Source: Arenicola marina (lineage: Eukaryota; Annelida; Polychaeta; Arenicolidae). Taken from it: DNA of 64,000 nt. Below the pieces are notes generated by a model that was not told the DNA's origin, searched no databases, and was given only the letters and a program-made list of their open reading frames with translations. This document shows positions 14,141-53,800 of this stretch, piece by piece. Where the stretch lies: contig OZ025248.1 of NCBI GenBank assembly GCA_964019135.1, forward strand, positions 54,677,670 through 54,741,669. Reading direction: 5' to 3'. Position 1 is the stretch's first letter. Each line of letters starts with the position of its first letter. The translations under genes were made by a program, and so were the position numbers.

Positions 14141-17100
14141 CTTGTTCTTGTTTTGCCTATTATTTGTCCTACCCAGACTTGGTCTGGTGTAATATTCGGA
14201 CCCATACATTAAGCAAACGGACATGACACATCGCACGTTTTATTAACCATTTAACCATTTATTAATACAGCCTTGCATTCATCCCAGCGCGTGGCAAAGT
14301 CCAGTGTTGATAACCAGACTCTCACCATGGAAGAAACTCGTTCATTTGACAGAGAGTGATAAAGGTGTCTCAGACCAGATGAACCGGAAATTTGACGGCC
14401 TCGGGGTTTTTGGACCTGACCAGGGAGTTGCAGCACAGATTGTCTACCCAGGACATTCCCCTGGTGCAGTAAGCCTGTCTGGAGTTTCAGCGTATGCCGC
14501 AGCATAGGGTGTCATATATATATAGTGGCATTAGGAAAAGGACCCCCAAAAAAGAGGCAAGGTGAAATTTGATCGACACTGACCCCATTTAAATAAATCG
14601 CAAAAATATAATGCCCATCTGAAGCCTATGGTCACTCAGTGGATATTCATATGAGGCAGCTGCTCTTGAATATGTTATGCAACGCCGGAAGCCACCTGGT
14701 TGATGACGTATTGGTGTCAGCGCCGCGAGGCCATATATCATACTGTGGGCCAAGGCTGATGTATACTTATAGCTTTCTATAACACTGCTATAAATTCGGC
14801 ATCTGCTTCATGTCTTCAGCCTTGCCTCAATGACTCACTGTTGTAAACTGCCATCGGTTGAGCCATTCTTCTTAAAGATGGTCATACGTGACGGTAAGGG
14901 CGGTGGGAAGATTGCTAGCTGGTATAGAGGCCAAGGGTGGAACTAGGTGTAGGCGAACATGTTTTTGCTTAAACGTTGATTTTCACAAACTAGGTTTTCC
15001 ACTCACTTGCTTGCACACGCTGAGGGACCAATCTGTGCCCTGTGTGCTTCAACACTTGCTCCACCTATTCCAGGCGTGACTACGTTTTCCCCATTTTTTT
15101 CAATCTTCTCAGTATTTTTATTACATTTAAACATTATTTAACGAGATTCATTATTTTGAGTTATTATGAAATGGCCAATTACCGTAGTATGTTACATTAC
15201 AGTAATATACCTTTGAACCGTGGAAACATGCAACATTTCTTGTCATTGTCATACAGACATGCAGTAAATAATTTAGTTAAATTGCGTATTTCATGCGTCA
15301 TAGGCGTATTTGTCTAAAACCTTTCCCAATCCGAATTTTTTTCCTTTCAGAATAAGCGAACGTAGTTACAATTAATTAGTTCTGCGAATAGTGAACTGGA
15401 TAGCGTCCAATTTCTCTTTTTGCAATAATTAATGTACTCAATCGCATTACGCTTACGGTTCTCGATCAACAATTCGTGAAGACGTTCCCAGAAATAGCTC
15501 GAATCCAATCAGATGTGAGCCGAATGATATACACCAGTGGCTCTTTGGACTAACAAACCACAAGTGGCACACGTAACTCCTTTAACTCCTTCAACTAGCG
15601 TTCAGGACTGATTTCTCAAAAATGGTATGATGCAGTCGCACTGGATACCACATCAGATTGGCGGGTTGGACTAATGAAGCACAGGCCTCGAGGAGAGCCC
15701 TCTTGCGACGGCCACTTCCGGTCGTTCTATCTTTGCACCTGCCTTATCAGCGTGGTTACTGGGAAATGTCTCACGAACAGTCCAAGCCAAGCCGCTCTTT
15801 ATGCTCCTCGCTGCACTCGTTGACCTTTTCTGCTGAATAGCTTCCCTTCTTTCCGTTGTGCCGTTAGCTTTATGCTAATTAAGATACGTAAAAATTAAAA
15901 AATTAAAACGACAAATGAGAGAATTAATGAATGGGTTAAAACTGCCCAGCCGGTCTGAATTTTGGTTCATTCGACAACATGAGGCTTCCTGAGTCTGGCG
16001 TGCCGTCATGGTAGTATCAATGTTGCAGCTGACAAGTTGTTAACTGGTCACTGAATAACACATACCTGGTTATCAGACCTCATTATTCAAACGTCCCAAT
16101 TAGATGTAAACAGATATCTTGTTTCATCAGCTCCTTCATAAACATCTCGCTTATCGTGTCTATCATCGTTTGCAGACCAAAACAGACGCCAGTAATATGT
16201 GCATTTTAATTATTTATTTGACAAGCAATACCGATACAGTTTCGATCACAGACGGCGGATAAGCGGTCATAACATTACCCATTTAATATTATTTTATACA
16301 AATACTACATCGAACAGTGCAAAAACGGTGCAACACCAGATTAGGGGTTTACTTTCCATGCGAACCATTGTAAACACTGTACCGCGGGGTAACTGTAAGA
16401 ACACAGCCTAACAAGTTGTAAAAACAAGTTGTTTCAAGAGCTGTAATGGAGAATGATGGATTTTGACAGGGGCCAGCCACGTTTTAAAATGTGCCAGTGT
16501 AGACTACAATGATTAGAACATTGATACTATTGCCCTGCTTTTTTCAACTTTCAAAGGGGGGAATTATAACGATGCAAGCTTACTAAAAATCACCTCATCA
16601 TTATGGTTATAAATCGCTCACAGCTCAAGCTTTTCGCAGGAATATCATATTGATGCTAAGCAAAAGGCAGAAAAACTTATTTTAACGCAGACGTTCTTTG
16701 TGATGGTAATAGTAATCTGTATGAAACCGGATTCATCGTCCACATTTTTTCTTTTTTGTATATAAATATTAAATTATTATTTTTATTATGGCATAAATAG
16801 GTTTTTGATGGGGCAAATAGATGCGATGATCATATCCTATATTCATATACGTAAATGATTAAAGCCGCCAAATCATGGTATAAACAACCAATTCGTACCC
16901 AAAATAATTGAAGTTTATCTGAAGGTTAAGCGGTAAAACGCGTCAACAGTTCCCACAGACTGATGAGGTAGTGCAGGAACAGGTGTACTCATCTGTACCA
17001 GAATGTTTCTAAAAACGTGCACTGTACTAATTTTACATTCGCGTGTACTTCCACATGAACGTGTTTTCCCATGAGCGATACTGTTGTATAGTTCTTTCAT

Positions 17101-20918: not shown

Positions 20919-23900
20919 ATAAGCGGTTAGCATTAAATTATTGATTGCAAACACAGGTTTAATATCCGTAGGCGAATGCGTTACAAGATACCTTAATATG
21001 ACGCGTGTGCTCGTACGCTAGTATATTTATATTTTATTAATGACTTGCACGATACGTTTCCTCTTTAATGCCATCCCTTTACACTTATTTCAGCTGTACG
21101 GTGTATTTCTCCCTGGATGGCGGCCGCGGCGACACACTGCTAAAGCCCATACGGCTTGATTTACCGCCTGAGACTGATCTGGCTTGCGAGATTGTCTGTG
21201 GAATAGATGCTCTGGACACGGACAAATGCGGTCTAGGTCAGGCGGCTAGCAGGTAATCAGCTTGCGGAAGCCTCTTAGGCAAAAGGGGATGAGATGAGAC
21301 CAGGATCCGATGAGACGTCCCCCCCCCCATGTCCTAGCCAGGGCTTCAGCGTGGCCACTGCCACAGCTAGGGCTTCAGCCTGGCCGTGGGGACGCCAGCA
21401 GACGGCTAGTGGTGGATGCCGGGGTTAAGACGGTAGGAGCATTCCAACGTGCTTCTGTCGGCGACAGACAGGAGGCAGGCAGGCACACAGGATAAAGCGG
21501 CCGCTAGTGACTAGCGATGCAAACAAGACATTTGTTTCTTGTCCTTCCTGTCGTCTCCTCGCGTTAACCACCACATGTTCACCAAACGAGGATTATTTCA
21601 GTGTTTTGCCCTTAGTGGATGAATATGTGGATTGATAATGACCTCTTGACAGAAATGCCGTCAAATCCACCAGAGCAATGGTACCCAGATCAGATAAATC
21701 GTTGGGGCAGCTATAAAGGAAATTGTCTCGACTGCGTTTCTTTAACGATAACGCCGGTGGCATGCAATATCCCCACGGTTTTAAACATTTAAAACACTAA
21801 TTGACGTATTACAGAAGGAGACTGTTCTTCATGAATATTACTCATCTTACTACTTACATCTTAGTACTCATCCCACGCACAAGCATATATACATTTTGAT
21901 CATCTTCGCGAGGATACCATATACTGCCTGCAGCGTGAGATGAGAAGGCGGCTAGAGTGATGTAAACTGTGAAGTGAAGGACGAGATTGGAACCTATGGA
22001 TCGTGTGTGAGACTGGAAACAGGGGCAAAGCATGACCTACCATGCTAAGGGACAGCGGTGATCAAGTCTCTCAGTTGGATCTCACCTTTCGAGGACCAAG
22101 CTCAGGTAACGTGTTCATAGGTCACTTCGAGGAATTAATACTGACTGTGATATTCTCTCCGTCCCTGTCCCGGTGACCCATCGTTTAGTTTACTTCTCCC
22201 CTGATCATTCTTGTTAACACGAATAAGGTCTGTTTCGTGTGCCGGGTAATGACGATTGTTTTCAATGTACTTTTTTTTGTCCTTGACATTTAGACCCAAT
22301 GAGGCAGCACAAAAAGTCTTTGCATTATTTTTTTTTCAGGAGAAGACTATCCATTTCAAAATATACGTATTTTTGACCAACTTAAAGCGGGTGTCAAACC
22401 TAATCTAATCGCGATTTGCACGGAGAGTTTACATCTTTAACTTAAATTGGCAAGTCTTAACACTTCGTTTTGGTAAGGAGAAAAAAATTAAGGCAAACCC
22501 GCCCCCATCAATGTCGAGCAGCGCGCCATTTTGCCGGAGCAAGTGACGTATATTGTGACCCTTCAGGTGTCGCCGCGTTATAACCGGAAGTTATCTCGCG
22601 AAAGGAACTCTTAACACTAGAGGTAGTCTTCAGGGAAAACGCGTGAAACGAGAGATCGGGGCCGCGATTTTTGGATGAATTGCGGCAGTTCCAAGCCGCG
22701 CACTAGACCATTATCTTAGTGTTTCATGGAAAAATGGCATCCAATCATATTGATATATCTCCGGGCACCGATTGTCCATGTAAAAAAACCCATGATTGGA
22801 GTTATAATCGCAGCTATTTATATTAGCGATGACCACGCGCTCTTGTTGTTGCTCACACAGTAGGCGTCATTTCCGGTTTCAATATAATGAAAGTATCGCC
22901 TCCCGATTGGTCAATCGTGGACACACCTCCAAACAGAGCTGCCGCCTGGTTACGCGGCGAAATCGTGGCTGGCGGTCACTTACAAATTTTATTTTTATTG
23001 TGAGCTACAGACAGGAGGGAAAATTCTGTGATTTGGCGGATAGACACCTGGGTATTATATGAATCGGTAAAGCAGCGTTAAGGCTAGACTGGCAGCTTCC
23101 TTTAAGACAATGCTTTATGGGATCATATCGATCGAACGTCTCCCCATGCGTTGGCCTTAATACCAAAATATTACCCTTAGTTGCAACCACTATACACTGT
23201 CCTGTTATCATATGTTATCAGCATTGTTATCATATGACATCCAGTAACAGGTGAACTTTCGTTGTAAGACGGACACGATGGCGTCTTAAACACACCGTTT
23301 GAATAATAATTAGTAAGGCATCGGAATTTGCTGTAGATTGCTAGAATGTACCGTTTGGGATCAATCACAAAACATGCTGCGTTTTCTGTGCTTACTCAAG
23401 CCTCTCATAAGCCAATGCTCTTTTATTTAGTTTACAAGTTTTGATCTCTGAACTTTTTGGGGGGTTCTTGGCTGCGATGGTTGGATTTGTGTTTTATCTG
23501 CAAGACGTATTCACCTTAGTGTGAGGGCATGATTTTTTTAACGAACTAGAGGACAAATTGTTTTTCAAATTGTTTTTTCTCCTTGGTATTAAATGTTCTG
23601 TCCCTAAGTAAAATGGCTAAATATTCATGATGGTATTATATCGGTCGTGTTAATAGATGACGATGACAGGTTTTGTGAAGGCAGAAATAATATTGGATGA
23701 TATTTATAAAGTTTTGCTTGAAAGACTGAAGTTTCATATGAATTGATGTGTATAGTCGATCAAGGATTGTCATACTGATGGCTGGACATGGCTTGCTATT
23801 GTAGTCGGTTCATGGGTACAAATTCATCTCCTCCTTACCATCCAATGATAATATCCAGTGTCAGATAAGATTTGTGAAAACATTCATGTATCGAACACGG

Positions 23901-26821: not shown

Positions 26822-27700
26822 TCCATAGTAACACCCACTTGTCGCTGACAACTATCTCCCCCATAGTAACACCACCCGCCTGTGGCTGACAACTATCTCC
26901 CCCATAGTAACACCCACCTGTGGCTGACAACTATCTCCCCCATAGTTACACCCACCTGTGGCTGACAACTATCTCCCCCATAGTAACACCCACTTGTGGC
27001 TGACAACTATTTCCCCCATAGTAACACTCACCTGTGGCTGACAACTATCTCCCCCATAGTAACACCCACCTGTGGCTGACAACTATCTCTACCATAGTAA
27101 CACCACCCACCTGTGGCTGACAACTATCTTCCTCATAGTAACACCCACATGTGGCTGACAACTATCTCCCCCATAGTAACACCCACCTGTGGCTGACAAC
27201 TATCTCCCCCATAGTAACACCTACCTGTGGCTGATAACTATCTCCCCCATAGTAACACCCACCTGTGGCGGACAACTATCTCCCCCATAGTAACACTCAC
27301 CTGTGGCTGACAACTATCTCCCCCATAGTAACACTCACCTGTGGCTGACAACTATCTCCCCCATAGTAACACCCAGCTGTGGCTGACAACTATCTCCCCC
27401 ATAGTAACACCCACCTGTGGCTGACAACTATCTCCCCCATAGTAACACTCACCTGTGGCTGACAACTATCTCTCCCATAGTAACACGCACCTATGGCTGA
27501 CAACTATCTCCCCCATAGTAACACCCACCTGTGGCTAACAACTATCTCCCCCATAGTAACACCCACTTGTGGCTGACAACTATCTCCCCCATAGTAACAC
27601 CCACTTGTGGCTGACAACTATCTCCCCCATAGTAACACCCACCTGTGGCTGACAACTATCTCCCCCATAGTAACACCACCCACCTGTGGCTGACAACTAT
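26822..27700. repeat. 38-bp tandem array ending each unit in a splice-acceptor-like CCCCCATAG
   Basis: About 23 units of 38 bp; CATAGTAACAC recurs at 26824, 26862 and so on, with a few units three bases longer (ACACCACCC). Each unit contains TATCTCCCCCATAG, a pyrimidine tract followed by AG that looks like a 3' splice site. No exon follows, because the array runs directly into a GGCGT array. Confidence 0.93.
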
Positions 27701-27702
27701 CT

Positions 27703-28140
27703 GGCGTGGGGTGGCGTGGCGTGGCGTGGCGGCTTAGGGGTGCGTGGCGTGGCGTGGCGTGGCGTAGCGTGGCGTGGCGTGGCGTGACGTGGCGTGGCGT
27801 GGCGTGGCGTGGCGTGGCGTGGTGTGGCGTGGCGTGGCGTGGCGTTGCGTGGCGTGGCGTGGCGTGGCGTAGGGTGGCGTGGCGTGGCGTGGCGTGGCGT
27901 GGAAGCGTAGGGTTGCGTGGCGTGGCGTGGCGTGGCGTGGCGTGGCGTGGCGGCGTAAGGTTGCGTAGGGTTGCGTAGCGTGGCGTGGCGTGGCGTGGCG
28001 TAGCGTGGCGTGGCGTGACGTGGCGTGGCGTGGCGTAGCGTGGCGTGGCGTGGCGTAGCGTGGCGTGGCGTGACGTGGCGTGGCGTGGCGTGGCGTGGCG
28101 TGGCGTGGCGTGGCGTAGCGTGGCGTGGCGTGGCGTGGCG
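27703..28140. repeat. GGCGT pentamer array
   Basis: About 440 bp of GGCGT units with scattered variants (AGCGT, GACGT, GGTGT, AGGGT). It abuts the preceding 38-bp array without any spacer. Each unit carries a CpG on a five-base spacing. Frames through it are period artefacts. Confidence 0.95.
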
Positions 28141-29550
28141 CAAGGTGTGCCTTGCTTCGGATAGGTAAAATGTCAAAACTCAATTAACAATAGGATCTCG
28201 ATTGCAGCAGTGTTGTCAGAAGGCTTACCTGATGGTCACGATTATTATTAATACCATGATGACCACCAACATAGACGATGAGCCTTGAACTGTAAATAGC
28301 TTGATCGTGCTATGTTTGTCCATATATATCTCATTTCAAAGTAACTATAACTGAGTTGCGTCAAAGAAACGTCACTTTGATGAACAAAATGACTCCCCAG
28401 TTAGGAGTATTATATTCGAACTCAATGCAGTATAATTGTGGCTTTAATGGAACTTACGTAGCGCCGTCTGACGATGACACCTTGGCAATGCCACCCTAGC
28501 CCAGTTAAACCCAAGAAGCACAACGATTTTCCCTTTTTGTCACGGCCGTTTATTTGTGCCTCACCCAACCCAAGCCGTTTCCTGCGCCAATGCAGCTGAT
28601 TTATTCGTGTCAAGCCAGAGTCCCACACCAGTTCATGCCATTGTCCCCTGGGTTTCTGGGGCCGGTTCAGCCATAAAACATTAATCCACCCATCCATCGT
28701 ACATGCCAGATTGTGTCCCGGTTCCACGGGCCGCCGCATCCCTCTGAAGGAATATCCGTTCCGACGGAATAAATACCCAAAGTCCCTTTTTGAAAACAAT
28801 ATGGGATCACGTGGTTCTCTGATCCTTGCTTCTTCTCGCTAATGTGAAATGACCTGACAGAATAATGTTCCCCGCAAGCTTACCACACAACTATAACACT
28901 ATTCGATCGGGACGCTTGCATATGCGGTGGTCGCAGCTCCTGCGAAGCAAAATGTTATGATTGTTTTAAAGGAATTTCTACCTATTGTTGAACGAGTAAT
29001 ATATGGGTTTAATAAAAGAAACGAACGCCATTTAAAAATTTAATGCAATGTGATATTTTATTCTTTCAACTTGATCAGCATATGCGAGCCGAGCCTTGGA
29101 TCTCGTTGCCAGTCTGTATTTCTCCAGAAGAATAGCCGCATTTGGGAATTCTGCTATATATATCAATTCCTTAGCAATCCACATTTAAAAAAATAGTTCC
29201 GATGAATTTGATAATTAAAGGACTAGTCTATACGGAAATATGATATGTAACAACAATGTGCTTCCCAAGTCTGAATTCCCAAACGCGCCTATTCTTGTTT
29301 CAAAGGAAAAAATATACAGGCTGGAACCGATACCCAACGAAGTGGGTCTCCCTAGGCTAATACAAGCATATACCTGCCTGTCATGTACCCGTGGACATTG
29401 GGATCATGTCGATTATGTTCATTAGTGCCATAGTGTTGAGTGTCTGTCTCATGTTATGGCGCTTACACGCTTCCGTGTGTTTCAATACATGCCACTGATT
29501 AATCATTGTTTAATATGAGAACCGGAATTATTTACTGGCATGCCTGTAAT
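28141..29550. other. No exon recognised upstream of synaptotagmin
   Basis: This stretch should contain the 5' end of the synaptotagmin transcription unit or part of its first intron. No coding exon or promoter could be identified. The minus-strand frame at 28422-28799 has no domain I recognise. Confidence 0.4.
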
Positions 29551-29554
29551 TCAG

Positions 29555-30476
29555 TACAATACCTTGACATGGGTACCGCCGCTGTTGTGTTTACAGGCAT
29601 GTCTCTACATGGTTACCGTTAATGTTGTGTTTACATGCATGTCTCTACATGGGTACCGCCACTGTTGTGTTTACAGGCATGTCTCTACATGGTTACCGTT
29701 AATGTTGTGTTTACATGCATGTCTCTACATGGGTACCGTTACTGTTGTGTTTACAGGCATGTCTCTACATGGGTACCGTTACTGTTGTGTTTACTGGCAT
29801 GTCTCTACATGGTTACCGTTACGGTTGTGTTTACAGGCATGTCTCTACATGGTAACCGTTACGGTTGTGTTTACAGGCATGTCTCTACATGGTTACCGTT
29901 ACTGTTGTGTTTACAGGCATGTCTCTACATGGTTACCGTTACGGTTGTGTTTACTGGCATGTCTCTACATGGTTACCGTTACGGTTGTGTTTACAGGCAT
30001 GTCTCTACATGGGTACCGTTACTGTTGTGTTTACAGGCATGTCTCTACATGGGTACCATTACTGTTGTGTTTACAGGCATGTCTCTACATGGGTACCGTT
30101 ACTGTTGTGTTTACAGGCATGTCTCTACATGGGTACCGTTACTGTTGTGTTTACAGGCATGTCTCTACATGGTTACCGTTACTGTTGTGTTTACAGGCAT
30201 GTCTCTACATGGGTACCGTTACTGTTGTGTTTACAGGCATGTCTCTACATGGGTACCGTTACTGTTGTGTTTACAGGCATGTTTCTACATGGGTACCGTT
30301 ACTGTTGTGTTTACAGGCATGTCTCTACATGGTTACCGTTACTGTTCTGTTTACAGGCATGTTTCTACATGGGTACCGTTACTGTTGTGTTTACAGGCAT
30401 GTCTCTACATGGTTACCGTTACTGTTCTGTTTACAGGCATGTCTCTACATGAGTACCGTTACTGTTGTGTTTACAG
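29555..30476 (+). repeat. 40-bp minisatellite repeating a 3' splice site and ATG
   Basis: An exact 40-bp period from the TTACAGGCAT at 29591 to the last one at 30471 (22 full steps). Each unit contains TGTTGTGTTTACAG followed by GCATG, so it repeats a pyrimidine tract, an AG acceptor and a start codon. The last unit supplies the acceptor and ATG of the synaptotagmin exon at 30477. A few units carry TTACATGCAT or TTACTGGCAT and so lose the CAG. No unit has a stop in any forward frame, which leaves the array open in all three frames. Confidence 0.95.
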
Positions 30477-31354
30477 GCATGCCGCTGCCGCTGCTAATCG
30501 GGCTCCTGAGCGGCACCTCGCTCCTGGTGGTCAGCTTGGTCGCCTACTGCTCCGTCAAATGCTGGAAGGGCCGCTGGCCCCATTCGTCGGGATCCTCCTC
30601 CGGGGCAAATGATTCCCCATTCCAGATCCACAGTCCGGGACACCTCAAGATTTCCCAAAGCGTTCCGGATCTCATCGACGGGGACGTCCGATTAGCGGAC
30701 ATGGTCCGCGCCGAGGAACGGATCGGGAAAAATCTGTATAAGACCGTAATTAAGCAGTCGACGTTACCAACCGTTCCGCAGCGCCACCTATCGTTCCAGA
30801 GACAGCTCTCCCATAAACTGGATCTGTCCAACGTCGCTTTCACCATCCATAGCGTTAAGTATAAGGAACAACCGGAAACGGGGAGGATAAAACCGGAACT
30901 CTACCGACAGAACGCGCAAGACACAGTCGCGACACAAGGCACCGGAGTCCAAGCCGATCCAACGCAAACGTGTGGTAAACTCCATTTCTCATTGCTCTAT
31001 TATCAGCAGACTGAAACTCTCGTCGTGAACGTGATTAGCGCCGAGAAACTCCCGGCGAAGGACTTTTCGGGTACGTCGGATCCGTACGTCAAAGTCTACG
31101 TGTTACCCGATAGGAAAAATAAAGTCCATACAAAAGTGCACCGGAAGACACTAAACCCCGAATTCAACGAAAAATTCAATTTCAATGTGACCTACAGCGA
31201 CTTGATGCAACGTGCCCTTCAGTTCAGCGTTTATGACTTTGACCGATTCTCTCGCCATGACCTCATCGGGGTCGTGCTGGTGAAGGATATGGGCCAGGAA
31301 ACGGCTTTGACGTATGAGCAGCACTACACGAGGGACATCATATCCGTGCAGCAG
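30477..31354 (+). CDS. Synaptotagmin exon 1 of those visible: TM, linker, C2A
   Basis: The acceptor TTTACAG ends at 30476 and the donor CAGCAG/GTAAAG follows 31354. The exon carries the ATG at 30479, the membrane segment, a ~140-residue linker and the complete C2A domain with all five acidic calcium ligands. It ends in phase 0. The frame is also open upstream through the 40-bp array to 29540, so the start at 30479 is chosen because it lies just inside the exon and directly precedes the membrane segment. An earlier start cannot be excluded. Confidence 0.88.
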
Positions 31355-34300
31355 GTAAAGGCCAAAGCCATTGCTACGGCAAACGCAGCTGTTCCCCTTT
31401 CAATATTGTCAACACTATAGCGCTGCATACCTCTTAGGAAGACGGCTCTGTAGTATTGATTTTATCTTTTCATAGACGACATTATTTCATATATATTTTA
31501 TATATATATAGATATACATCTATGCATGCATAGTTTTATATTGGTATATTCATATATATATATGCATTTTCATATCTCTTATGGAATACGTATATTCTGT
31601 TTCTTCCTTATGGATTTCATTTTCTTGATTGTGATACATTCAGCTTACCATATGGAGACTGATTACCATATATAGACTGATTAATACGCTACAACCCCCA
31701 TGTGGTAACTATATGACCATTGTATGTTATAAAACCCAGACGGGATGGCGCGGTGCTGCACCCTCGAGAGCTTCTATGGCTAGGCTGCCCACTTAGATAA
31801 TGGCACCAGACTCCATGATGCACTGGTAGCTTCTAACTATGCTTACGGGTATCGCTAGGCGGATGCATGTTTCCTGGGATTGTCAGAGAAGCGGTGTCAT
31901 AATTTGATATTTGCCCATGGCGATTTGATTACTGTCACCGATGCCCTGGGTTTGTGTTGTGGGATGTTGCTGCACTGAATCCTATACCCCTTGCACTGAG
32001 ACCACTTCGCTTCTTTCATTGTGCGCATCCAGTCGTGGCTGAAAAAAACAAAGTAGTGCAATTGACAATTACACATTAGTTATTCCCTTTATCCTGGTAA
32101 CACTGTGATTATAGTCTGGAGTTGTCCTCATAAACGATGGTGGATAAATAACAATATAATGCAATTAAACCAGTTATTCACATATTCATGTAACACTGTG
32201 ATTAGAGTCTGGACTATCTGACCTTGTCAAAAGTATTCACGTTGATAAATACATTAGCAACGGCCACGATGTAACGAAAAAGTGATTTTGTTTGTAGAAA
32301 ACACCGTTATTATCCTTCAATTATTTATATTTTATTCCATATGCAGTTCAAATATTGTCAACGGTGCTTTCGGCATACTATCACGTTGATCCTTACTCTG
32401 GTTTAAATGAGGAAAGTACCGGCCAACGCGGTTCTAATTTTAGTGAGGAAGCGATATGCCAATATAATATTCCCCATCTCCCCTGTCCCCTCCCCTCCTG
32501 TCCTCAGTATCAAATTGCTTTAGCCATGTGGTACGCGTACAAACAATGAAAGCTATAATCGAATTGTGCGCATGTGCATAAAGGACGAGCTAATCAGTTG
32601 GCCAGCGAGATGGGACCAATGATTAGCTAATATATCAGATGACTATTATATCAATGTCAAGGTACAACATGACACAAAGAGGGTATGTGGTCAACGGCCT
32701 TCAGCCTGGGGGAACAAAACACGTTCAATAGCACGCTTTCATAGGGCAACTATCAGTGATTCATGAAACACAAGGGGAAGCCTGCGGCCTGCACAAGCTC
32801 CCCCCCCCCCTTCCCCCATCCGACCCACTCCTCCACCACCCCGACAAACCACCTCGCTATCAACAAATAATACTTTCCCGCTCCCCAGCATGGTTCCTCC
32901 AGTGCCTAAGTAAGGTGATATTAGCGGGTACCCCCCCCCCACCACCCCCACCCATCGCCGAGAGACTTGTTGCTACCTAGGAAGCCTTCATGCATCTCCA
33001 CGCGGCTGCCGCTTTGTTGCGAGCCATAACAGGCGGCCTGATGAACCAGGAAGGCTGACCGGCATGAGTGCCCGGCAGCATGGCCAATGAGTGCCATGTG
33101 CAAAAACAAACCGTTGAAATAATAATGTGCCTGCCATAGTGCATTTATATCCGGGAAATAGGTCAATGAAGTGCCGACATGGTGACTCCAAGAGATAAAG
33201 ATAGGCAATGGTATTTAGGGGTTATGAGAAAAGTGTGTTCGGTGGGAGTGGGGGGTGGGGGGGGGGGGGGGGTGGTGGACGAAGTGGGGGCGGGCTGGTG
33301 GGGGGTAAAGCGGTTAGGACTCTAATCGGTTCCCCAAGCAATATTGTTCACCCTAATTGATGGATATCTATAATGTATAGCCAATATAACTCCTATATCA
33401 GACAAGAGAGTACGTGAAAAGCCGTAATATACTAATGGCGTTGCACATCCAGAGGCCGCGATATAATATATCTGATTTATGTAATTGAAATAAGATATCC
33501 ATCAGTCATACACTATATAGACATGGTTCTTCCAGCCGCGGTTTGTGTTAGTGCGGTGCGAAAAGAATCTTCCCATCTTTACGTTGCCATACATGACCGT
33601 CTCCGTGCCCTTGACATGGTGACCTGATTACATGGTCGGCGCCTAATGTGATCCCTTGGTATCTCCAGGAGCAGGTGGATCTCGGGGAAGTGATGTTGTC
33701 GCTATGCTACCTACCGACCGCCGGGCGGCTGACGGTCACCATTATAAAGGCGCGTAACCTCAAGGCAATGGACCTGTCAGGGACATCAGGTAAGCCTGTC
33801 TGTCGCCATTATAAAGGCGCGTAACCTCAAGACTGTAGACCTGTCAGGGACATCAGGTAAGCCTGTCTGTCGCCATTATAAAGAGGCGTAACCTCAAGAC
33901 TGTAGACCTGTCAGGGACATCAGGTAAGCCTGTCTGTCGCCATTATAAAGAGGCGTAACCTCAAGGCAATGGACCTGTCAGGGACATCAGGTAAGCCTGT
34001 CTGTCGCCATTATAAAGAAGCGTAACCTCAAGACTGTAGACCTGTCAGGGACATCAGGTAAGCCTGTCTGTCGCCATTATAAAGAGGCGTAACCTCAAGA
34101 CTGTAGACCTGTCAGGGACATCAGGTAAGCCTGTCTGTCGCCATTATAAAGAGGCGTAACCTCAAGACTGTAGACCTGTCAGGGACATCAGGTAAGCCTG
34201 TCTGTCGCCATTATAAAGAGGCGTAACCTCAAGACTGTAGACCTGTCAGGGACATCAGGTAAGCCTGTCTGTCGCCATTATAAAGGCGCGTAACCTCAAG

Positions 34301-37140
34301 ACTGTAGACCTGTCAGGGACATCAGGTAAGCCTGTCTGTCGCCATTATAAAGAGGCGTAACCTCAAGACTGTAGACCTGTCAGGGACATCAGGTAAGCCT
34401 GTCTGTCGCCATTATAAAGAGGCGTAACCTCAAGACTGTAGACCTGTCAGAGACATCAGGTAAGCCTGTTTGTCGCCATTATAAAGAGGCGTAACCTCAA
34501 GACTGTAGACCTGTCAGAGACATCAGGTAAGCCTGTCTGTCGCCATTATAAAGAGGCGTAACCTCAAGACTGTAGACCTGTCAGGGACATCAGGTAAGCC
34601 TGTCTGTCGCCATTATAAAGAGGCGTAACCTCAAGACTGTAGACCTGTCAGGGACATCAGGTAAGCCTGTCTGTCGCCATTATAAAGAGGCGTAACCTCA
34701 AGACTGTAGACCTGTCAGGGACATCAGGTAAGCCTGTCTGTCGCCATTATAAAGAGGCGTAACCTCAAGACTGTAGACCTGTCAGGGACATCAGGTAAGC
34801 CTGTCTGTCGCCATTATAAAGAGGCGTAACCTCAAGACTGTAGACCTGTCAGAGACATCAGGTAAGCCTGTCTGTCGCCATTATAAAGAGGCGTAACCTC
34901 AAGACTGTAGACCTGTCAGGGACATCAGGTAAGCCTGTCTGTCGCCATTATAAAGAGGCGTAACCTCAAGACTGTAGACCTGTCAGGGACATCAGGTAAG
35001 CCTGTTTGTCGCCATTATAAAGGCGCGTAACCTCAAGACTGTAGACCTGTCAGAGACATCAGGTAAGCCTGTCTGTCGCCATTATAAAGAGGCGTAACCT
35101 CAAGACTGTAGACCTGTCAGGGACATCAGGTAAGCCTGTCTGTCGCCATTATAAAGAGGCGTAACCTCAAGACTGTAGACCTGTCAGCGACATCAGGTAA
35201 GCCTGTCTGTCGCCATTATAAAGAGGCGTAACCTCAAGACTGTAGACCTGTCAGGGACATCAGGTAAGCCTGTCTGTCGCCATTATAAAGAGGCGTAACC
35301 TCAAGACTGTAGACCTGTCAGGGACATCAGGTAAGCCTGTCTGTCGCCATTATAAAGAGGCGTAACCTCAAGACTGTAGACCTGTCAGGGACATCAGGTA
35401 AGCCTGTCTGTCGCCATTATAAAGAGGCGTAACCTCAAGACTGTAGACCTGTCAGGGACATCAGGTAAGCCTGTCTGTCGCCATTATAAAGAGGCGTAAC
35501 CTCAAGACTGTAGACCTGTCAGGGACATCAGGTAAGCCTGTCTGTCGCCATTATAAAGAGGCGTAACCTCAAGACTGTAGACCTGTCAGAGACATCAGGT
35601 AAGTTACAGGAAAAAAAATTCAAATGATTAGTCGCATAAAGAGTTTAAAACCTTACTGTCAATACATAGTGTTTTATCTTGCAAATGTTGTATGCTTGAT
35701 GTGTCACTTAGCTAATGGATGAAATTGGATAGGGTAGGCTAATGGGTAGGAAATGAATATATGTAAAACGGTTGTTTGTTTTTTATTGTTATATGTACTA
35801 CATAATTTATCACTATTATCATCATTATCAGTGTCAGGTGAAAAACATTTACCGAAAGCTTCATCTTATATAATGTTATATAATACTCCTCTTGATTTAC
35901 GTACACGTCATCTTGTCTAAATATAATGAAAGAAAATGTAATAAATATATTTAGCATTCATTATGCATTCAATTCTTCGAAACACTCCAGATGCCGCATT
36001 ATATTCCACCGTTTCATAAAAGACTTGCATCATGCATCAGATCTGACCATCCTTTGAACCGCTTGAACTTTGACATTTCGGTGGTCTAGACCCCTACGTG
36101 AAGGTGTCTCTGATGTGTCACGGGCGACGCATTAAGAAGAAGAAGACGTCCGTGAAGAAGAACAGCCTGACGCCAGTCTACAACGAGGCCATTGTCTTCG
36201 ACGTGCCGCAGGAAAACATCGAGGAGATCCTGCTCGTCATCAAGGTCATTGACTACGACAGGTCGGTCACGCACTCCACGGCAGCAGCGGATTCTCTGCT
36301 AATTTTGATCCATATGATTGTCACTGTTGATCGTTACAATAATTTATGTGTTCAAATGCTTAAGTGATGAAGATGTGGACATAGGCGTTCGTTAATAGGA
36401 CACGCTTAGAACACATTGTATAATGGAACAACGCATAATGACCACCATCATGACATAATGACCGCCATCATGACATAATGACCGCCATCATGACATAATG
36501 ACCGCCATCATGCCATAATGACCGCCATCATGCCATAATGACCGCCATCATGACATAATGACCGCCATCATGACATAATGACCGCCATCATGACATAATG
36601 ACCGCCATCATGACATAATGACCGCCATCATGACATAATGACCGCCATCATGCCATAATGACCACCATCATGACATAATGACCGCCATCATGACATAATG
36701 ACCGCCATCATGCCATAATGACCACCATCATGCCATAATGACCACCATCATGACATAATGACCACCATCATGACAAGGAGACATATCACTTTAGATGAAA
36801 CACGAATAAATTATATTTCTTACAATATGGCCGCAGTTTATGTATATATCCATGAATAATTAAGTGATTAATATATTCAAGCTTCCTATTGGATCTCCCC
36901 AGGGTGGGGAGCAATGAGGTGATGGGCTGCTGCGTCGTGGGTTCCCAGGCCCCGGGCCCGGGGGCCGACCACTGGTTCGAGATGTTGAACAACTCCCGCC
37001 GTCCTGTGGCCCAGTGGTACACTCTCCTTGACCAGGTGCCCGGCGCCGCCTTCGAGAAGACCCCTAACGGCGGCGGCGGCGGCGGCAACCGGAAGCAGGG
37101 GAAGAGCTCGCCCGCCAAAGGCGTCGTGGGCACGACATAA
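30479..37140 (+). CDS. Synaptotagmin, SYT3/6/9/10-like (4 exons, 468 aa)
   Basis: Joining 30479-31354, 33669-33789, 36090-36261 and 36903-37140 keeps phase at every junction and gives 468 residues. Residues 3-24 form a membrane segment followed by a Cys-containing juxtamembrane stretch. C2A spans about 165-285 with acidic calcium ligands D195, D201, D253, D255 and D261. C2B spans about 297-445 with D327, D333, D387, D389 and a KKKK polybasic patch at 348-351. The last ~25 residues are Gly/Lys-rich. By family, it should be a membrane-anchored calcium sensor for regulated exocytosis, binding acidic phospholipids and SNAREs. The C2B sequence resembles the SYT3/6/9/10 group more than SYT1 or SYT7. 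Oddities: the luminal N-terminus is very short, so an upstream coding exon is possible, and minisatellites lie on two splice junctions. No AATAAA was seen in the first kilobase after the stop. Confidence 0.9.
31355..33668 (+). other. Synaptotagmin intron 1 of those visible
   Basis: A 2.3 kb intron bounded by GTAAAG and TATCTCCAG. It holds AT-rich TATA repeats (about 31485-31570), C-runs (32800-32812, 32932-32940) and a G-run (about 33248-33272). No additional coding segment was found. The protein is continuous across it: the end of C2A joins the short linker to C2B. Confidence 0.75.
33669..33789 (+). CDS. Synaptotagmin exon 2: first part of C2B
   Basis: A 121-bp exon, acceptor TATCTCCAG/GAGCAG and donor ATCAG/GTAAGC. 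It encodes residues 293-332 ([14 protein letters not shown] and the [10 protein letters not shown] calcium loop) and the first base of D333. Its last 51 bases are the parent of the 67-bp array that follows. Confidence 0.92.
33790..35598 (+). repeat. 67-bp minisatellite repeating the exon 2 end and its 5' splice site
   Basis: GT donors occur every 67 bp from 33790 to 35599, exactly 27 periods. Each unit is 16 nt of intron (GTAAGCCTGTCTGTCG) plus 51 nt that copy the 3' end of exon 2, including the CAG/GTAAGC junction. Most units differ from the exon by AAGACTGTAGAC for AAGGCAATGGAC and GAGGCG for GGCGCG; the unit ending near 33990 keeps the parental GCAATG. The last junction reads GTAAGT. Reading through the first donor meets TAA after 11 further codons, so only the first donor gives a full C2B. 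Confidence 0.96.
35599..36089 (+). other. Remainder of synaptotagmin intron 2
   Basis: AT-rich unique sequence from the last donor copy to the acceptor GGTGGTCTAG at 36089. No coding segment. Confidence 0.7.
36090..36261 (+). CDS. Synaptotagmin exon 3: C2B core
   Basis: A 172-bp exon from acceptor GTGGTCTAG to donor GACAG/GTCGGT. It encodes the rest of D333 through R390: the [11 protein letters not shown] strand, the KKKK polybasic patch and the VIDYDR loop with D387 and D389. The donor GTCGGT is a weak match to consensus, but the boundary after the DYDR motif joins the next exon in the correct phase and restores the family sequence. Confidence 0.92.
36262..36902 (+). other. Synaptotagmin intron 3
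   Basis: A 641-bp intron. Its central part is a 20-bp tandem array (listed separately); the rest is unique AT-rich sequence ending in the acceptor GGATCTCCCCAG. Confidence 0.8.
36422..36775. repeat. 20-bp tandem array inside synaptotagmin intron 3
   Basis: About 17 units of CATAATGACCGCCATCATGA, with variants CCACC for CCGCC and TGCC for TGAC. Unlike the other two arrays of this gene it does not overlap a splice junction: it begins 160 bp after the donor and ends 125 bp before the acceptor. Confidence 0.95.
36903..37140 (+). CDS. Synaptotagmin last coding exon: end of C2B and tail
   Basis: Acceptor ATCTCCCCAG at 36902, stop TAA at 37138-37140. It completes R390 and encodes VGSNEVMG, the HWFEML motif and PVAQWYTL that close the C2B domain, then a Gly-rich tail encoded by a GGC repeat near 37070-37086. 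The tail is not typical of vertebrate members and may be lineage-specific. Confidence 0.92.
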
Positions 37141-44699: not shown

Positions 44700-44897
44700 T
44701 TACTTTTCATATGTCTCCCTGGGCCAGGGCGTGTAGTAGGAAAAGACCCAGGGTCGGGAGACGCCCTGGCGTTCCCGGATGCTGTCCAGATTACCCCGCC
44801 GCTCCACGTTGGCATCCCGACGCTTCAGCAACATCTGACGTCGCTTCATCATTTCCTGGCGCATGCGCTCTCGCGCCTCCTCCTCCTGTTGTCGGAG
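44700..44897 (-). CDS. Coiled-coil gene, exon 17 (last coding exon)
   Basis: 198 bp including the stop, acceptor TGATTGTGCAG. Encodes 65 residues: a charged helix (LRQQEEEARERMRQEMMKRR) and a C-terminal segment with aromatic residues (RPWVFSYYTPWPRETYEK). Phase 0 entry agrees with exon 16. Confidence 0.88.
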   Translation of the reverse strand, partial: LRQQEEEARERMRQEMMKRRQMLLKRRDANVERRGNLDSIRERQGVSRPWVFSYYTPWPRETYEK

Positions 44898-47800
44898 CTG
44901 CACAATCAGGCGAAATAACACCGGTTAGGGAGATATTGCACACAATTTGTCAATGTCATGTTTTCCGTTGCATTGGCAGGGGCGCGAATCTAGCGGAGGA
45001 GGGGAGGGTGGTGAGGGAGGTCTCATCCTCCAGCAACAAGGGGATGTCACTGTTAAAGTCGCAAATCCTCCCCCCGCGGTTGTAGTAGTAGTAAGTTTTA
45101 TTCAAGAGCCCCCGGCTCGGTCGCACCACTAAATTCCTAGATCAGCCCCAGATTGGATATTTTGATTCATCTTTTCTGTTTATTATTTATGGGAAATTAT
45201 TTACAATGGAGATGGAGCAGTTGTCAGGAAGGTCGAGGTGGTTACCGCTAGGTAGCGCTGCCGTTCCTCCTCTCTTTGCTTTTCTTCCTCCTCTTCTCTT
45301 AATCGTTGTTCTTCCGCTAGGCGGCTCTGCTCCTCTAACAACGCCTGTCTGAAAGGCGGAGGAAGTATAAAACTCTCTAACACAATATAAATAGAGGTAT
45401 TGTATAGACTTATATAGATCAGTTGCGCCTACTAAAAGATTGCAATAACTGTCATATGCAATACAAGTTCAGGCCGTACACAACGGAAAAAGATATTTGA
45501 ACAACATACATTCGTCTTTTAGTGAATATCGATTAATATAAAGATAGAGGACGAAAATGTTAATAACGGAAAATACATCGCGTGACGCCGAAATTGAAAA
45601 TAGTAAGATACATTTCAAGGATGGATCATGGGAATACAATAGTTAATGTATGCATACACATAGACTTATAACTTACTGTTAATGTATGCATACACATAGA
45701 CATATAACTTACTGTTAATGTATGCATACACATAGACTTATAACTTACTGTTAATGTATGCATACACATAGACATATAACTTACTGTTAATGCATGCATA
45801 CACATAGACATATAACTTACTGTTAATGTATGCATACACATAGACATATAACTTACTGTTAATGTATGCATACACATAGACATATAACTTACTGTTAATG
45901 TATGCATACACATAGACTTATAACTTACTGTTAATGTATGCATACACATAGACATATAACTTACTGTTAATGTATGCATACACATAGACTTATAACTTAC
46001 TGTTAATGTATGCATACACATAGACATATAACTTACTGTTAATGTATGCATACACATAGACATATAACTTACTGTTAATGTATACATACACATAGACATA
46101 TAACTTACTGTTAATGTATGCATACACATAGACATATAACTTACTGTTAATGTATGCATACACATAGGCATATAACTTACTGTTAATGTATGCATACACA
46201 TAGACATATAACTTACTGTTAATGTATGCATACACATAGACATATAACTTACTGTTAATGTATGCATACACATAGACTTATAACTTACTGTTAATGTATG
46301 CATACACATAGACATATAACTTACTGTTAATGTAAACATACACATAGACTTATAACTTACTGTTAATGTATGCATACACATAGACTTATAACTTACTGTT
46401 AATGTATGCATACACATAGACATATAACTTACTGTTAATGTATGCATACACATAGACTTATAACTTACTGTTAATGTATGCATACACATAGACTTATAAC
46501 TTACTGTTAATGTATGCATACACATAGACATATAACTTACTGTTAATGTATGCATACACATAGACTTATAACTTACTGTTAATGTATGCATACACATAGA
46601 CTTATAACTTACTGTTAAGGTATGCATACACATAGACTTATAACTTACTGTTAATGTATGCATACACATAGACTTATAACTTACTGTTAATGTATGCATA
46701 CACATAGACATATAACTTACTGTTAATGTATGCATACACATAGACTTATAACTTACTGTTAATGTATGCATACACATAGACATATAACTTACTATTAATG
46801 TATGCATACACATAGACTTATAACTTACTGTTAATGTATGCATACACATAGACTTATAACTTACTGTTAATGTATGCATACACATAGACATATAACTTAC
46901 TGTTAATGTATGCATACACATAGACATATAACTTACTGTTAATGTATGCATACACATAGACATATTAGTTACTGCTAATGTATGCATACACATAGACTTA
47001 TAACTTACTGTTAATGTATGCATACACATAGACATATAACTTACTGTTAATGTATGCATACACATAGACTTATAACTTACTGTTAATGTATGCATACACA
47101 TAGACATATAACTTACTGTTAATGTATGCATACACATAGACATATAACTTACTGTTAATGTATGCATACACATAGACATATAACTTACTGTTAATGTATG
47201 CATACACATAGACATATAACTTACTGTTAATGTATGCATACACATAGACATATAACTTACTGTTAATGTATGCATACACATAGACTTATAACTTACTGTT
47301 AATGTATGCATACACATAGACATATAACTTACTATTAATGTATGCATACACATAGACTTATAACTTACTGTTAATGTATGCATACACATAGACTTATAAC
47401 TTACTGTTAATGTATGCATACACATATACTTATAACTTACTGTTAATGTATGCATACACATAGACATATAACTTACTGTTAATGTATGCATACACATAGA
47501 CATATAACTTACTGTTAATGTATGCATACACATAGACTTATAACTTACTGTTAATGTATGCATACACATAGACATATAACTTACTGTTAATGTATAAGCA
47601 TACACATAGACTTATAACTTACTGTTAATGTATGTATACACATAGACATATAACTTACTGTTAATGTATGCATACACATAGACATATAACTTACTGTTAA
47701 TGTATGCATACACATAGGCATATAACTTACTGTTAATGTATGCATACACATAGACATATAACTTACTGTTAATGTATGCATACACATAGACTTATAACTT

Positions 47801-50800
47801 ACTGTTAATGTATGCATACACATAGACATATAACTTACTGTTAATGTATGCATACACATAGACTTATAACTTACTGTTAATGTATGCATACACATAGACA
47901 TATAACTTACTGTTAATGTATACATACACATAGACTTATAACTTACTGTTAATGTATGCATACACATAGACTTATAACTTACTGTTAATGTATGCATACA
48001 CATAGACATATAACTTACTGTTAATGTATACATACACATAGACTTATAACTTACTGTTAATGTATGCATACACATAGACATATAACTTACTGTTAATGTA
48101 TGCATACACATAGACATATAACTTACTGTTAATGTATGCATACACATAGACTTATAACTTACTGTTAATGTATGCATACACATAGACATATAACTTACTG
48201 TTTGTTCTCTTCCTCCTCCTTGGCTCTCCACGCCATTCTCTGTAGCTCCAGCTGCTTATCCTCTGCTTCCTCCCTCTCTCGAACAAGTCTGGCCAGGGCT
48301 TCCTCCTCCCCCTATGGACCGTCCATTACAACTCATGAGCATATCACCTCCACATTGATAACATTAATTGTGGTTAATTTCCTATCATAGAAAGTAAACA
48401 GGCGGAAAATAAAATGTTTGCACCTTTAAACGCAAAAATGTCCCACCAAGGGGACAAGGGTAAATTTTCAAATAACTTAGAAATGAACTTCCGTGATATA
48501 TCATTATTAACCTTTAATTACAGTAACGCTTGCGTCCGTTTAGATCGCATATTGGTTATTCAACGATAGGGACAGTTTGGTCTTGCAGCAGTACAAACGA
48601 ACCGTCAACGACAATGTAATGCGATGGAATGGATAGTGTAGTTCCACGAATCACAGAATGGTGAATCAGAACAAACACGTCTTATTACATTTAAACACGG
48701 GCAAACGTGATCCCAGAGAAAATCAAGATATCAACATGTCAATGTGTATCGATCCCCATGCATTTTTTATAGATAATCACGCATTACCAAAGGTTTCTGG
48801 CAAATTATCCAAATATCAAATTCGGCTAAAAGAAACTGGAACATGATGCACATATTAGACCTGTCAAGACACTGCTCAACCCCATAGAATGTAGAACATC
48901 ACTGGACACGTTGGTTTAAGCGTGCAACAATACAAATAATATTACGATCGAAAACCCGGGAGTACTGTATAGGCCTATGAAGACATGCAGGAAACTAAAC
49001 ACACCTTCGGCTCAGATGTATGACAAAAAATTTCAACTTCCAACATGCTATAACAGGATTTCTGACAGAAAAAGTCACCTTATGAATATTCCCTGCAACT
49101 AATAATCATTGTACATGCCCATGCGCTCTATTCCACGGTCAAGGTCATTACCCGTCGTCTGACTGCCCCCATCTTGAAGAGTTCCTACAGATGACCAAAT
49201 GGGTACAAGTCGAGGCAAATATGACAAATCGGATCCTTTATTCAAGTGTCAACCTTGTTAAGATTACCTGGCGGATATATATTCTGCAACAGCAAGGCCT
49301 GGGTCCGTATTCATAAACCATGCACAGCCCTACACAGATCTATATAGTTAGTGCCAAATAGAAATTTGAATCGGATTTCCCCGCCACTAACAGAAATATA
49401 TCACTCACCAAAAGCATATTCAGGATGAGGCATGTGACACAATTGAAGTAATTGTGGATTACGAACGCCACTGCGACGAGCTGGCGAGAAATGCGCCGCG
49501 AGCGAAAGCACTTACCGTGCGAAACTAACGCCATTATTGGAAATACCGTTCCTGATGAATATCAAAAGTAGACGCGGTCGAAAGATTTGTGTAGCCAAAG
49601 ACTACTGGCAAAAGGCCCCCCCCCCAGTTCCAGTCAGTCAGTCAAGTTTTACAGTACAGTACGTTTCACCTAAATACCTTAGTTATTACCTGACGGGGGT
49701 AATTATTTGACAATGACAAACAGGACGCAAAAATGTTCACTTCCTGTCTTGAAACATGCAGGAGGAAAGACAAAAAAAGGAAGCAAATAATACGGTTACG
49801 CAATCTAGATAAAGTTGAAAGAGCTTTATTCGCACATTGCGGCGACTCATAAAACAACACTTTACGGGGTATGCCGGTAACGATAATGATAGTTTATTGT
49901 CTTAGAAGCACTGAGGCGTTAAAAATAAATACCTGCTTCTCCATTTCCCTTATTCGTTCCTCCTCTTCTTCTGCTCGCGCCCTGGCCATGATTTCTTCTT
50001 CCTGTGACAACACCATACGGCAAAATATTATTAGGTCAAAGTGTCATCTGCCAATATATTCTCACTAGAAAATGAACAATAGAATAGTTTGGGTTTGGGG
50101 TTGGGCCAATATACTATAGGTTACGCGAGAATATTACACCTGGCGCTTTCTAAAGTAATCAAGTTCTCCACATTTAATGACATCAAAATTATAATGCCAT
50201 TTGCGTAGAAAGTCGGAACAGGATTTTCACCGACCCAGAATAGGTTTCGATACAGAGCAATCACGTAATTCTTTAAGTTACGAAGTCATCATCTTCATAG
50301 TATCACGCTGACTAACCTCCATTCTCTCCTGCTCTAATCGCTCGTCTTCTTCCCGTCTAAGTCGCTCTGCCTCCGCCATGTGGCGCTGCTCCTCAGCATC
50401 GGCCAGCTGCATCAACATTTCGTGTTCCTTGCGACGCGCAGCCTCACCCATTGCCTTCTCCTCAGCACGGCGTCTAAACACAGAAAACAAGGTTTTAATC
50501 GCATCGAGCATAACTAATAGGTGGGTCATAATAACACTGTCTAGATTAATCCGGATAACTTGACTTGATCTAATTGACGAGTAAATCAAGGTCATGGGGT
50601 GATTTCATATCCAGTAGGAAGCATTGGTAAGATGCACAGGAGAGTCACTAACTTTTTACGTGGTTGTGAAATATCAAGAACAGGGCATCGGCTACGTTGA
50701 ACTGTGTCATTAGCGCAGCCTCTCAAGCTCAGCTGGTAAGCAGCGAATCGACAGGTCATGGATTTGCGCCCTGGCACCTACACCTGGGGCATGTGTCATT

Positions 50801-53800
50801 CAACCCATTTTATGTTTATAAAGGTCTTTGCTAATATTTTAGCTCCCCTCGATTAAATCACAACATTCTAGGAGATTCTAAGAATGGGGACAAAAGAGCC
50901 TTTCATTGTTCTTAAGATCGATCTAGGTTCTTCCCAAGAGCCTTTCATGCAGCTTATAACGTCACGACGACGCTAATTAGGGTAAATGTCACACACGTGC
51001 TGGACTAGTTCAGGGGCCGTATGCACACTCCCCTCGTAAGTTACGCACGAAGAGTGCATTTTCGTCTTAGCCTCACCAGTTCGGTGTGGTGGCGCTCATG
51101 ATTAAGGAATCCTTTTCAATATAAGTTTAGCATTTTCTTAATTAAAAAAATTCACTTCGCGGGTGACTTGTGATGTATTTTGAACCCGATAATCACTCGA
51201 ATTTTTTTGCACTTAGCGCTAAGTCTAGTCAAAGAGCTTGTATAGTTCTGTAAATTCTGTGATCTAGTGGCGTAGCCTAAGTGGCAGTTATGACTACTGC
51301 CCCAGGAGTCGTTGGAGATGACGTCCCTACCGGATGGCTTCCTGCTTCTTCAGCTCCAGGTCGGCTTTCCGCTTGGCCTCACGTTCAATGCGCGCCGCCT
51401 TGCGTGCCTCATCCAGGGCCTCTCTGGCGTCCTCCTCAGCTTGGCGGGCTTCCTCCGCCGCCTGCTCCATTTCCAAGATATCGCGGTCCAACCCCTGAAT
51501 GAGGCGTGAGAGACCACTTAATAGGCGTCTTAATTGGCTACAGACGTATTTAGGTGTTTAAATCACAACCGATTATACTGCAAGGCTCGAATATATATAG
51601 AACGGGTTAAGCCGAGCGCCCGCTATATATGTTATAGCGCTTCTGGATCCCCAGAGCAAGGGCTTTAATTGATAGAAATACAAATTATTACAAAAAACAT
51701 GTACTTCAAGCCAGCTTCTGTCTTAGTTCTGATACTATACATTAGATGCACTTCATATATAAAATTAAGAAATTAGGAGGTTTAAACTTAATAACACGCA
51801 TTTACTGGCAAAGATTAAAAATTAGAACATATTGTAGAAGCCTTTACAAACCTTATACGATGGATATATATACTTCAAATATAGGCAATAATACGATTAA
51901 GATAACAGGTTATATATATGTTCAAATGTATAAGTAAATGATGTCACAACTTACGTAACGCACATGAGACAAAAGGAACCAACATGAAATTTTACTTATC
52001 ATGCGTAAGCAAATTTTATGCTAAACATCATTTAAGTAGTTTGTAAGCATCACGTTTCGCTTGCAAATAAGTCTAAAAGGGAAGCATAAATGGCACATAT
52101 GGAAAACAGGTTGTAATGTCGAAAGAAGAAAAACCGCCCTTCTTTCATATGGTGTCATGTTGTTGCAATACAATACAATGCCATACAACATCGTTATATT
52201 TTATGTTACAACAAGTACGAAGCTAAAAATTGTCACAAAACTCAGCTGCCATTCTGGTACCAAAGTACGTATTCTCATACGTAATATTCATGTTCCCCAG
52301 ACCATCGAAAGATATACGGTACACAATATGAAGGCTGATATCAAGTTGAAAATATTAACATAGTCTTCTACATGCTCCTCGTATATTTATGTAGTAATTC
52401 CATTTTGTTGCGTGATAACGGGCAGCTTATTTCAGAATTATATTTAAACCGATATACTAAAATTGTTGACCTTTCGGCAATGTGAGTCAAGTACATCGTC
52501 ATTTTTAAATCAGTTTAACGTTGTGTATTTAAGATACATAATCAAGATACATAATCAGGCCCTGCATGCACTCGAATCAATGGGAATTCTTTATAGTCAC
52601 GTGTACATTGATACTTTTTGGGGGGCCTTTTTTCATCCTGAACAAAAATGAACATTTGCACAGGTGAGGATGGAACCACGCACCAGCTGTTTGGGCGCAC
52701 ACGGACATAGCCGAACACGCTACCCACTAGACCATAAATTGTTGGATTTTCATCTAATGTTTAATATATAGTTGGTAAGTTTTGTCTGTACCGTGAAGAT
52801 TTGATAAGTGATCATAACTGCTGAACGGTGGATTCATTCATTGGTCATAGAAGGATACCTCATATATCGCCAATGTGGACGATCATGAGTAAAGCGGAAC
52901 CATGTCCCCGGGGAAATCCATTATCAGTTTAATCTTTTCGATAAATGATATGGGGTCAGAGGTATTATTTAAACGCCTATAGTCTCACAAAATAATGTCC
53001 ATAAAAATACGAGTGTCAACGGAAGTAGCCATCCGCAAGAGTGATCCTCTCTGTGAGATCAATAATGGGTGACATGATCCTCGCTATCACGCCGTATCGA
53101 CATTTAGCTACACTTTGCCGATCTTCACCGGTATAGTTTCCCTCAATTGTAGGTGCATAATCGGAAGAATGCTTCTCGGAAAGTATACAGGTACACGCGG
53201 TACATGTTTCTAACATCTGGCTGTTATATCGTTAGTCTTCGCAAAACGAAGTGACTGCCATGAACTGTGGCTGTAATTAAATAACCCATTTCTGTGCACT
53301 AGTCATCATTATTTAACTTCATGATGATTTTTCACTTAATAGCCCATTTGCAGCTTTCCCAATTTATTAGGTGAAGTAAGGTCAGTTTTTGAAACAGGGG
53401 GGTAGGCCAGAACATTTTCCATATGACTCCTTAATGATTAAATGTTTCCTAAAAGTGAATCTATATCTATCGACGATGGTGTGTCACCAGGCATGAGCCA
53501 GATACGCCCGCCCCCCCCCCCCGCCCAGATACTGCGGTCATTTCTTGGGGTCATATCCCTACGTTGATTACGTAACACCGACACAAGGCAATGCCACTGA
53601 CGTGTTATAAATTATATAAATAGATTGCCTTGATATCATACCAAGCCGCAAACCATAATTCGGAATGTCTGAGGAATTATGAATGCGAAAGATACAAGCA
53701 TCAAAATTGTTATGGCAAAACACTAATATGTAGAGTAAAAGGAGCAAATGATAACTTCAGAAGTTTCGTAAATACGTTAGTTCGTGTATTTACGAACTAA

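Follow-up and report, generated by a model that had tools for sequence, protein, structure and literature searches.

A minisatellite of apparent mirage type places 28 near-identical splice donors at an exon/intron boundary of an annelid synaptotagmin gene

The window (the 64,000-nt stretch of Arenicola marina DNA analysed here) carries a synaptotagmin gene on its forward strand. Joining 30477-31354, 33669-33789, 36090-36261 and 36903 onward gives a synaptotagmin of 468 amino acids with a transmembrane segment and two C2 domains. The first of these exons (30477-31354, +), placed by reading frame and alignment, encodes the transmembrane segment and C2A and has an ATG at 30479. Exon 2 (33669-33789, +), placed by reading frame and alignment with 11 relatives, is 121 nt long, encodes the start of C2B and terminates at the first of the donors described below (donor 1). 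Exon 3 (36090-36261, +; reading frame and alignment) starts inside the codon of D333 (G/AC), and the coding part of exon 4 (36903-37140, +; reading frame) extends up to the stop codon. The introns around exon 2 measure 2314 and 2300 nt, the downstream one being 491 nt if counted from donor 28. The name exon 2 is provisional; translation may begin at the ATG at 30479, or there may be an extra 5' exon upstream of 30477.

Among the 120 homologues listed, the top protein match was from Paralvinella palmiformis (65% identity), followed by Capitella teleta, and synaptotagmin-3 was the best solved relative. In a tree of 21 proteins, made up of the window protein and 20 named relatives picked from these 120, the window protein clustered with the two annelids (support 100/99), apart from the lancelet row. 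The C2 domains were assigned by Pfam and alignment, whereas the transmembrane segment was read off the sequence and the alignment. The order of transmembrane segment, linker and tandem C2A-C2B is that of the synaptotagmin-9/10 type. The gene resembles those of synaptotagmin-9/10 (and -3/-6) in its transmembrane segment and two C2 domains but is set apart by the array where exon 2 meets intron 2, the comparison with the relatives being at the protein level. The C2B Ca2+-loop aspartates D327, D333, D387 and D389, which we take to be calcium ligands by analogy with rat synaptotagmin-1, are all present, and their columns are invariant in the alignment with 11 relatives. An earlier reading, made from the sequence only, had recognised a synaptotagmin gene with a junction in C2B, and this is supported by the homologues, the solved relative and Pfam.

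The end of exon 2 is repeated in tandem through most of intron 2. The donor CAG/GTAAG occurs 28 times, all 27 spacings are 67 nt, and the exon-end base lies at 33789 in copy 1 and at 35598 in copy 28, so that 33790-35598 spans 27 x 67 = 1809 nt. This exact register confirms the 67-bp minisatellite with 27 extra copies of the exon-intron junction that the sequence-only reading had described. Its account of the unit as the last 51 nt of exon 2 plus 16 nt of intron was borne out in all 27 full units, each of which crosses the exon-intron boundary with 51 exon-type and 16 intron-type nucleotides. Unit 1 (33739-33805, +) comprises the final 51 nt of exon 2 itself and 16 nt of intron, encodes KAMD and holds the sole donor that yields the full protein. 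Units 2-27 (33806-35547, +) are decoy junctions with CAG/GTAAGC in each, and the partial unit 28 (35548-35603, +) consists of the exon part and GTAAG, immediately past which it diverges from the consensus into unique intron (GTAAGTTACAGG). The donor signal is thus repeated in 28/28 units, and the donors are nearly identical as had been stated, 27 of them reading GTAAGC and the final one GTAAGT. TRF gave 27.9 copies with 97% matches and 0% indels. The consensus is matched exactly by 16 of the 27 full units. Just 24 of 1809 cells deviate from it; 22 of these fall in the part derived from the exon, and the donor 9-mer is free of changes. Such near-identity suggests turnover within the array. Each unit also contains TATAAA, which resembles a TATA box or a weak poly(A) signal and might be masked by nearby U1 sites; 27 copies of it lie inside intron 2 (33806-35603).

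Donor 1 gives the protein of 468 amino acids, and donors 2-28 give one identical truncated product of 343 amino acids. Reading past donor 1 runs for 11 codons and then meets an in-frame TAA at 33822-33824 (+), where it had been predicted. Because this stop precedes donor 2, the product of all later donors is the same, and the frame-restoring donors 4, 7, 10 and so on cannot rescue it. The earlier claims that only the first donor keeps the frame, and that C2B would otherwise be cut before D333, both hold: the full protein comes from donor 1 alone, and the junction is followed by D333, numbered from the ATG at 30479. Use of donor 2, 3 or 28 would make an exon of 188, 255 or 1930 nt. With donor 2, the first downstream junction would by arithmetic follow the stop at a distance of 32 nt, and the exon 3/4 junction at 204 nt. 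A stop that far before an exon junction is expected to trigger nonsense-mediated decay (NMD), and the decoy-donor mRNA of this case would be an expected NMD target. A gene predictor could set the exon end wrongly at any of the 28 donors.

The copies can be told apart by a short coding tract. Copies 1 and 4 encode KAMD (...NLKAMDL...), and the other 26 of 28 encode KTVD. K324, A325, M326 and D327 are shared without change by the window protein and 11/11 aligned relatives. Among the 120 homologues listed LKAMD occurs in 94 and KTVD in none, the remainder having forms such as NLKKMD and NLKGMD or being unmatched by the pattern. It follows that copy 1 retains the ancestral coding sequence, and by this coding constraint copy 1 is marked as the coding copy. 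The bulk of the array would then have descended from a diverged copy, and nowhere else in the window is the KTVD tract repeated exactly. Copy 4, together with a GC variant common to copies 1, 2, 9 and 20, points to exchange between units. The tail of copy 28 suggests an old intron edge that was retained, and the C at +6 in copies 1-27 would derive from the duplication joint; that the array ends in its strongest donor would thereby be accounted for. The junction/intron part of the unit has three exact 13-14-nt matches outside the array, at 14469-14481 (+), 21460-21472 (-) and 28221-28234 (-), compared with 0.4 expected from shuffled units. At least three such matches occurred in 0.4% of 2000 shuffles, but the count is post hoc and concerns three different places, and we therefore draw no conclusion from it; none of the matches extended further, and there was no longer similarity around them.

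Two further arrays in the window adjoin inferred splice sites. The first, with a 40-bp unit in 23 copies (29567-30481, +), carries TTTACAG in 19 of them, and its last copy is the putative acceptor of the C2A exon (exon from 30477), where eight of the first ten exon nucleotides agree with the unit. This acceptor array is without stops in the frame of the C2A exon, giving a 633-codon open reading frame at 29519-31420. Just 5' of it, TTTACTGGCATGCCTG at 29533-29550 resembles the C2A exon junction and is possibly a remnant of the founding duplication.

The second lies in a gene for a coiled-coil protein (44704-58256, -), modelled with 8 exons in a continuous frame of 394 amino acids, the end being uncertain (a donor or a stop at 44704). 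A 36-bp array (45642-48202, -) holds about 70 GTAAGT, with 67/69 of their spacings equal to 36, and the first of them (exon end 48199) is the putative donor of exon 6. This exon ends CA/GTAAGT and its frame continues into the next exon (CA/A), and a TAA is met at once if the first donor is passed. The unit has only about four nucleotides (AACA) in common with the end of exon 6, so this is better described as an array of donors than as a copy of an exon edge. No homologue of the coiled-coil protein was scored, one of the searches having scored just the 7994 candidates with most shared words, and no Pfam family was assigned, so that the gene model is drawn from frame continuity and splice signals. 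There are thus probably three splice-site arrays (67-bp, 40-bp and 36-bp) within 64 kb.

Judged by its structure, the 67-bp array is a mirage-type (splice-junction) minisatellite. Mirages, as described in PMC3087553, are such arrays at 5' and 3' boundaries in lancelet globin genes and Adh3, and PGBD5 and TnC also have them (PMC3902484). The lancelet arrays (Adh3, BflGb6/BflGb9, TnC, PGBD5) have in common with those of the window, as far as the published accounts describe them, tandem units spanning a boundary, repeated splice signals, occurrence at 5' and 3' boundaries, and unit size (10-160 bp in lancelets). They differ in copy number, with 28, 23 and about 70 copies in the window against 6 and 3 units in two described BflGb6 haplotypes, and in host, the window protein grouping with annelids. 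Splicing in the lancelet cases is reported as normal. Data on Adh3 and RT-PCR of globins suggest that it is undisturbed, with length and somatic instability also mentioned (PMC3087553), and the account in PMC3902484 has the Adh and TnC mirages generating no aberrant mRNAs and considers that of PGBD5 non-interfering. Human internal tandem repeats in segmental duplications (PMC2812944) are likewise minisatellites at gene boundaries, able to alter introns. They average about four 30-bp units, are often kept in an alternative transcript and, by their description there, are not arrays of a copied authentic donor. In earthworm metallothionein genes, tandem repeats were described in intron 1 and exon-4 duplications were unseen in the transcript (PMC12783039); that description, too, is not of arrays of a copied exon-intron junction. 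No annelid mirage was found in the literature searched, which covered few subscription papers. What appears to be new here is therefore the annelid host, the high copy number and, probably, the presence of three arrays in 64 kb; mirage-type arrays as such are known from lancelets, and the question of donor choice likely has a known answer.

The copy number of such arrays is error-prone in assemblies, and the draft-genome version of one lancelet mirage was seemingly misassembled (PMC3087553), so that the true array could be far shorter or absent. We regard such an artefact as unlikely. Variants occur in 11/27 full units, several of them common to scattered units, unlike what a looped single copy would give, and the two other arrays stand likewise to inferred splice sites.

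How, then, is one of 28 donors chosen? Pairing with U1 gave -11.1 kcal/mol for donor 1 and -12.2 kcal/mol for the last donor, in agreement with the sequence-only reading that the final GTAAGT is the better U1 match. Ten other modelled donors in the window, copy 28 aside, ranged from -4.5 to -8.6 kcal/mol. The same reading had left the choice wholly open. This we could not support, given a 121-nt exon between long introns, the lancelet precedents and the published minigene work. In the latter, when two identical CAG/guaagu donors competed in HeLa minigenes whose flanking introns were 365 nt long, splicing was exclusively from the upstream one (PMC9225289). In the transcriptome, where donor strengths were near-equal, the upstream donor was favoured under exon definition, placed at introns longer than about 250 nt (PMC9225289), a mark that the 2314- and 2300-nt introns of exon 2 exceed. 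Since exon 2 is short with long introns on either side, its nearest donor would be defined first, and donor 1 is most likely the one used. The close strengths of the first and last donors, and the 1930-nt exon needed for donor 28, lead us to think that donor 1 is used nearly always.

Some observations speak against exclusive use of donor 1. Donors 2 and 3 would give exons of a still definable length, and the last donor is stronger. In a survey of human alternative 5' sites with no strength filter, the downstream site was preferred in about 60% and predominated in each of the four intron-length classes; the stronger site prevailed in 86% (PMC9225289). Furthermore, the published rule concerns two donors in HeLa cells, and the case here is one of 28 donors in an annelid. 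For 3' sites the same source describes an upstream preference that is weaker under exon definition, so that the acceptor array would fit a proximity rule less well than the donor arrays.

The best explanation, which we hold to be likely, is that of a mirage-type passenger minisatellite at the exon 2/intron 2 boundary, with donor 1 chosen by cross-exon proximity. A short duplication across this boundary of a synaptotagmin-9/10-type gene would have founded the array, and slippage or unequal exchange would have amplified it into the intron, where it persists as a passenger. The donor nearest the single acceptor of exon 2, which is also the first to be transcribed, would be defined first. Copies 2-28 would stay within the intron, and rare leakage would produce one truncated, NMD-prone mRNA. 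The lack of decay in the donors of units 1-27 is what a young passenger predicts, without proving it.

The decoys could instead serve a function if they take a share of splicing, so that array length sets synaptotagmin output through unproductive transcripts. CAG/GTAAG is intact in every decoy, with 0/243 changed cells in the donor 9-mers of units 1-27, all 27 decoys lead to the same truncated product, and the strongest donor is the last. Homogenisation predicts intact decoys as well, however: at 24/1809 about 3 changes are expected in 243 cells, fewer if clusters count once, and 0 against about 3 is too weak to claim selection on the decoy donors. Cross-exon proximity favours donor 1 (PMC9225289), and lancelet mirages are reported to produce no aberrant mRNA (PMC3087553, PMC3902484). 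Such copy-number-tuned splicing is, in our judgement, quite improbable.

Masking of the decoys by RNA structure, leaving donor 1 exposed, is very improbable. A local hairpin is able to form over each GTAAGC donor, but the same hairpin forms at unit 1. Folding z-scores lay between -0.8 and -0.9 for the 67-bp unit, its hairpin and the last donor, while the units of the 40-bp and 36-bp arrays scored 0.7 and 0.4 (in either order); the accessibility of donor 1 (0.0015) falls within the range of all 28 (0.0002 to 0.0071). Neither measure gave a signal for RNA structure as a donor selector.

CAG joined to GTAAG, as found in each unit, is the core of recursive splice sites. Splicing could therefore ratchet through successive CAG/GTAAG with the same mRNA as the result, or small pseudo-exons could arise at AGs in the units, the AG at unit position 11 having a pyrimidine fraction of 0.69, as in real acceptors, and a predicted pseudo-exon of 40 nt. 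Hidden splicing of either kind is the most improbable of the explanations considered. The pyrimidine fraction ahead of CAG/GTAAG is 0.38, compared with 0.50 to 0.81 for 12 modelled acceptors, so that a recursive site, with its pyrimidine-rich acceptor directly before GTAAG, was rejected.

With donor 1 chosen by proximity, as we prefer, copy number is predicted not to matter, and 28 to 70 near-identical donors probe splice-site choice well past two-site minigenes. Mirages have been put forward as one way in which introns are gained (PMC3087553), and an annelid case with probably three arrays would also broaden the range over which they are known. We put forward, tentatively and as the less probable outcome, that minisatellites in this genome originate by preference at splice junctions and spread from the exon edge into the intron, mirages being part of a wider bilaterian mutational process or a tolerated niche. 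If so, such arrays would supply natural multi-donor and multi-acceptor splicing experiments.

The association with junctions was noticed before testing, and the three tests, none of them clean for that reason, disagree (P 0.90, 0.066 and 0.00011). By circular shift, 3/23 junction bases lay within any array against 6.3 expected (P 0.90), a test biased against association because exons avoid arrays. Three of 11 long arrays (at least 300 nt) had an end within 60 nt of a junction (P 0.066). For at least 3 of the 4 long arrays in the two gene models to abut a splice site (within 5 nt), random placement in their own introns gave P 0.00011, assuming an upstream intron of 1600 nt. The fourth array, with a 20-bp unit, lies off splice sites in synaptotagmin intron 3 (36434-36775). 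Elsewhere in the window a 34-bp unit forms an array of 6.2 kb with about 185 copies (3064-9260), and further long arrays are found at 10021-10975, 11255-12748, 26823-27702 and 27702-28140.
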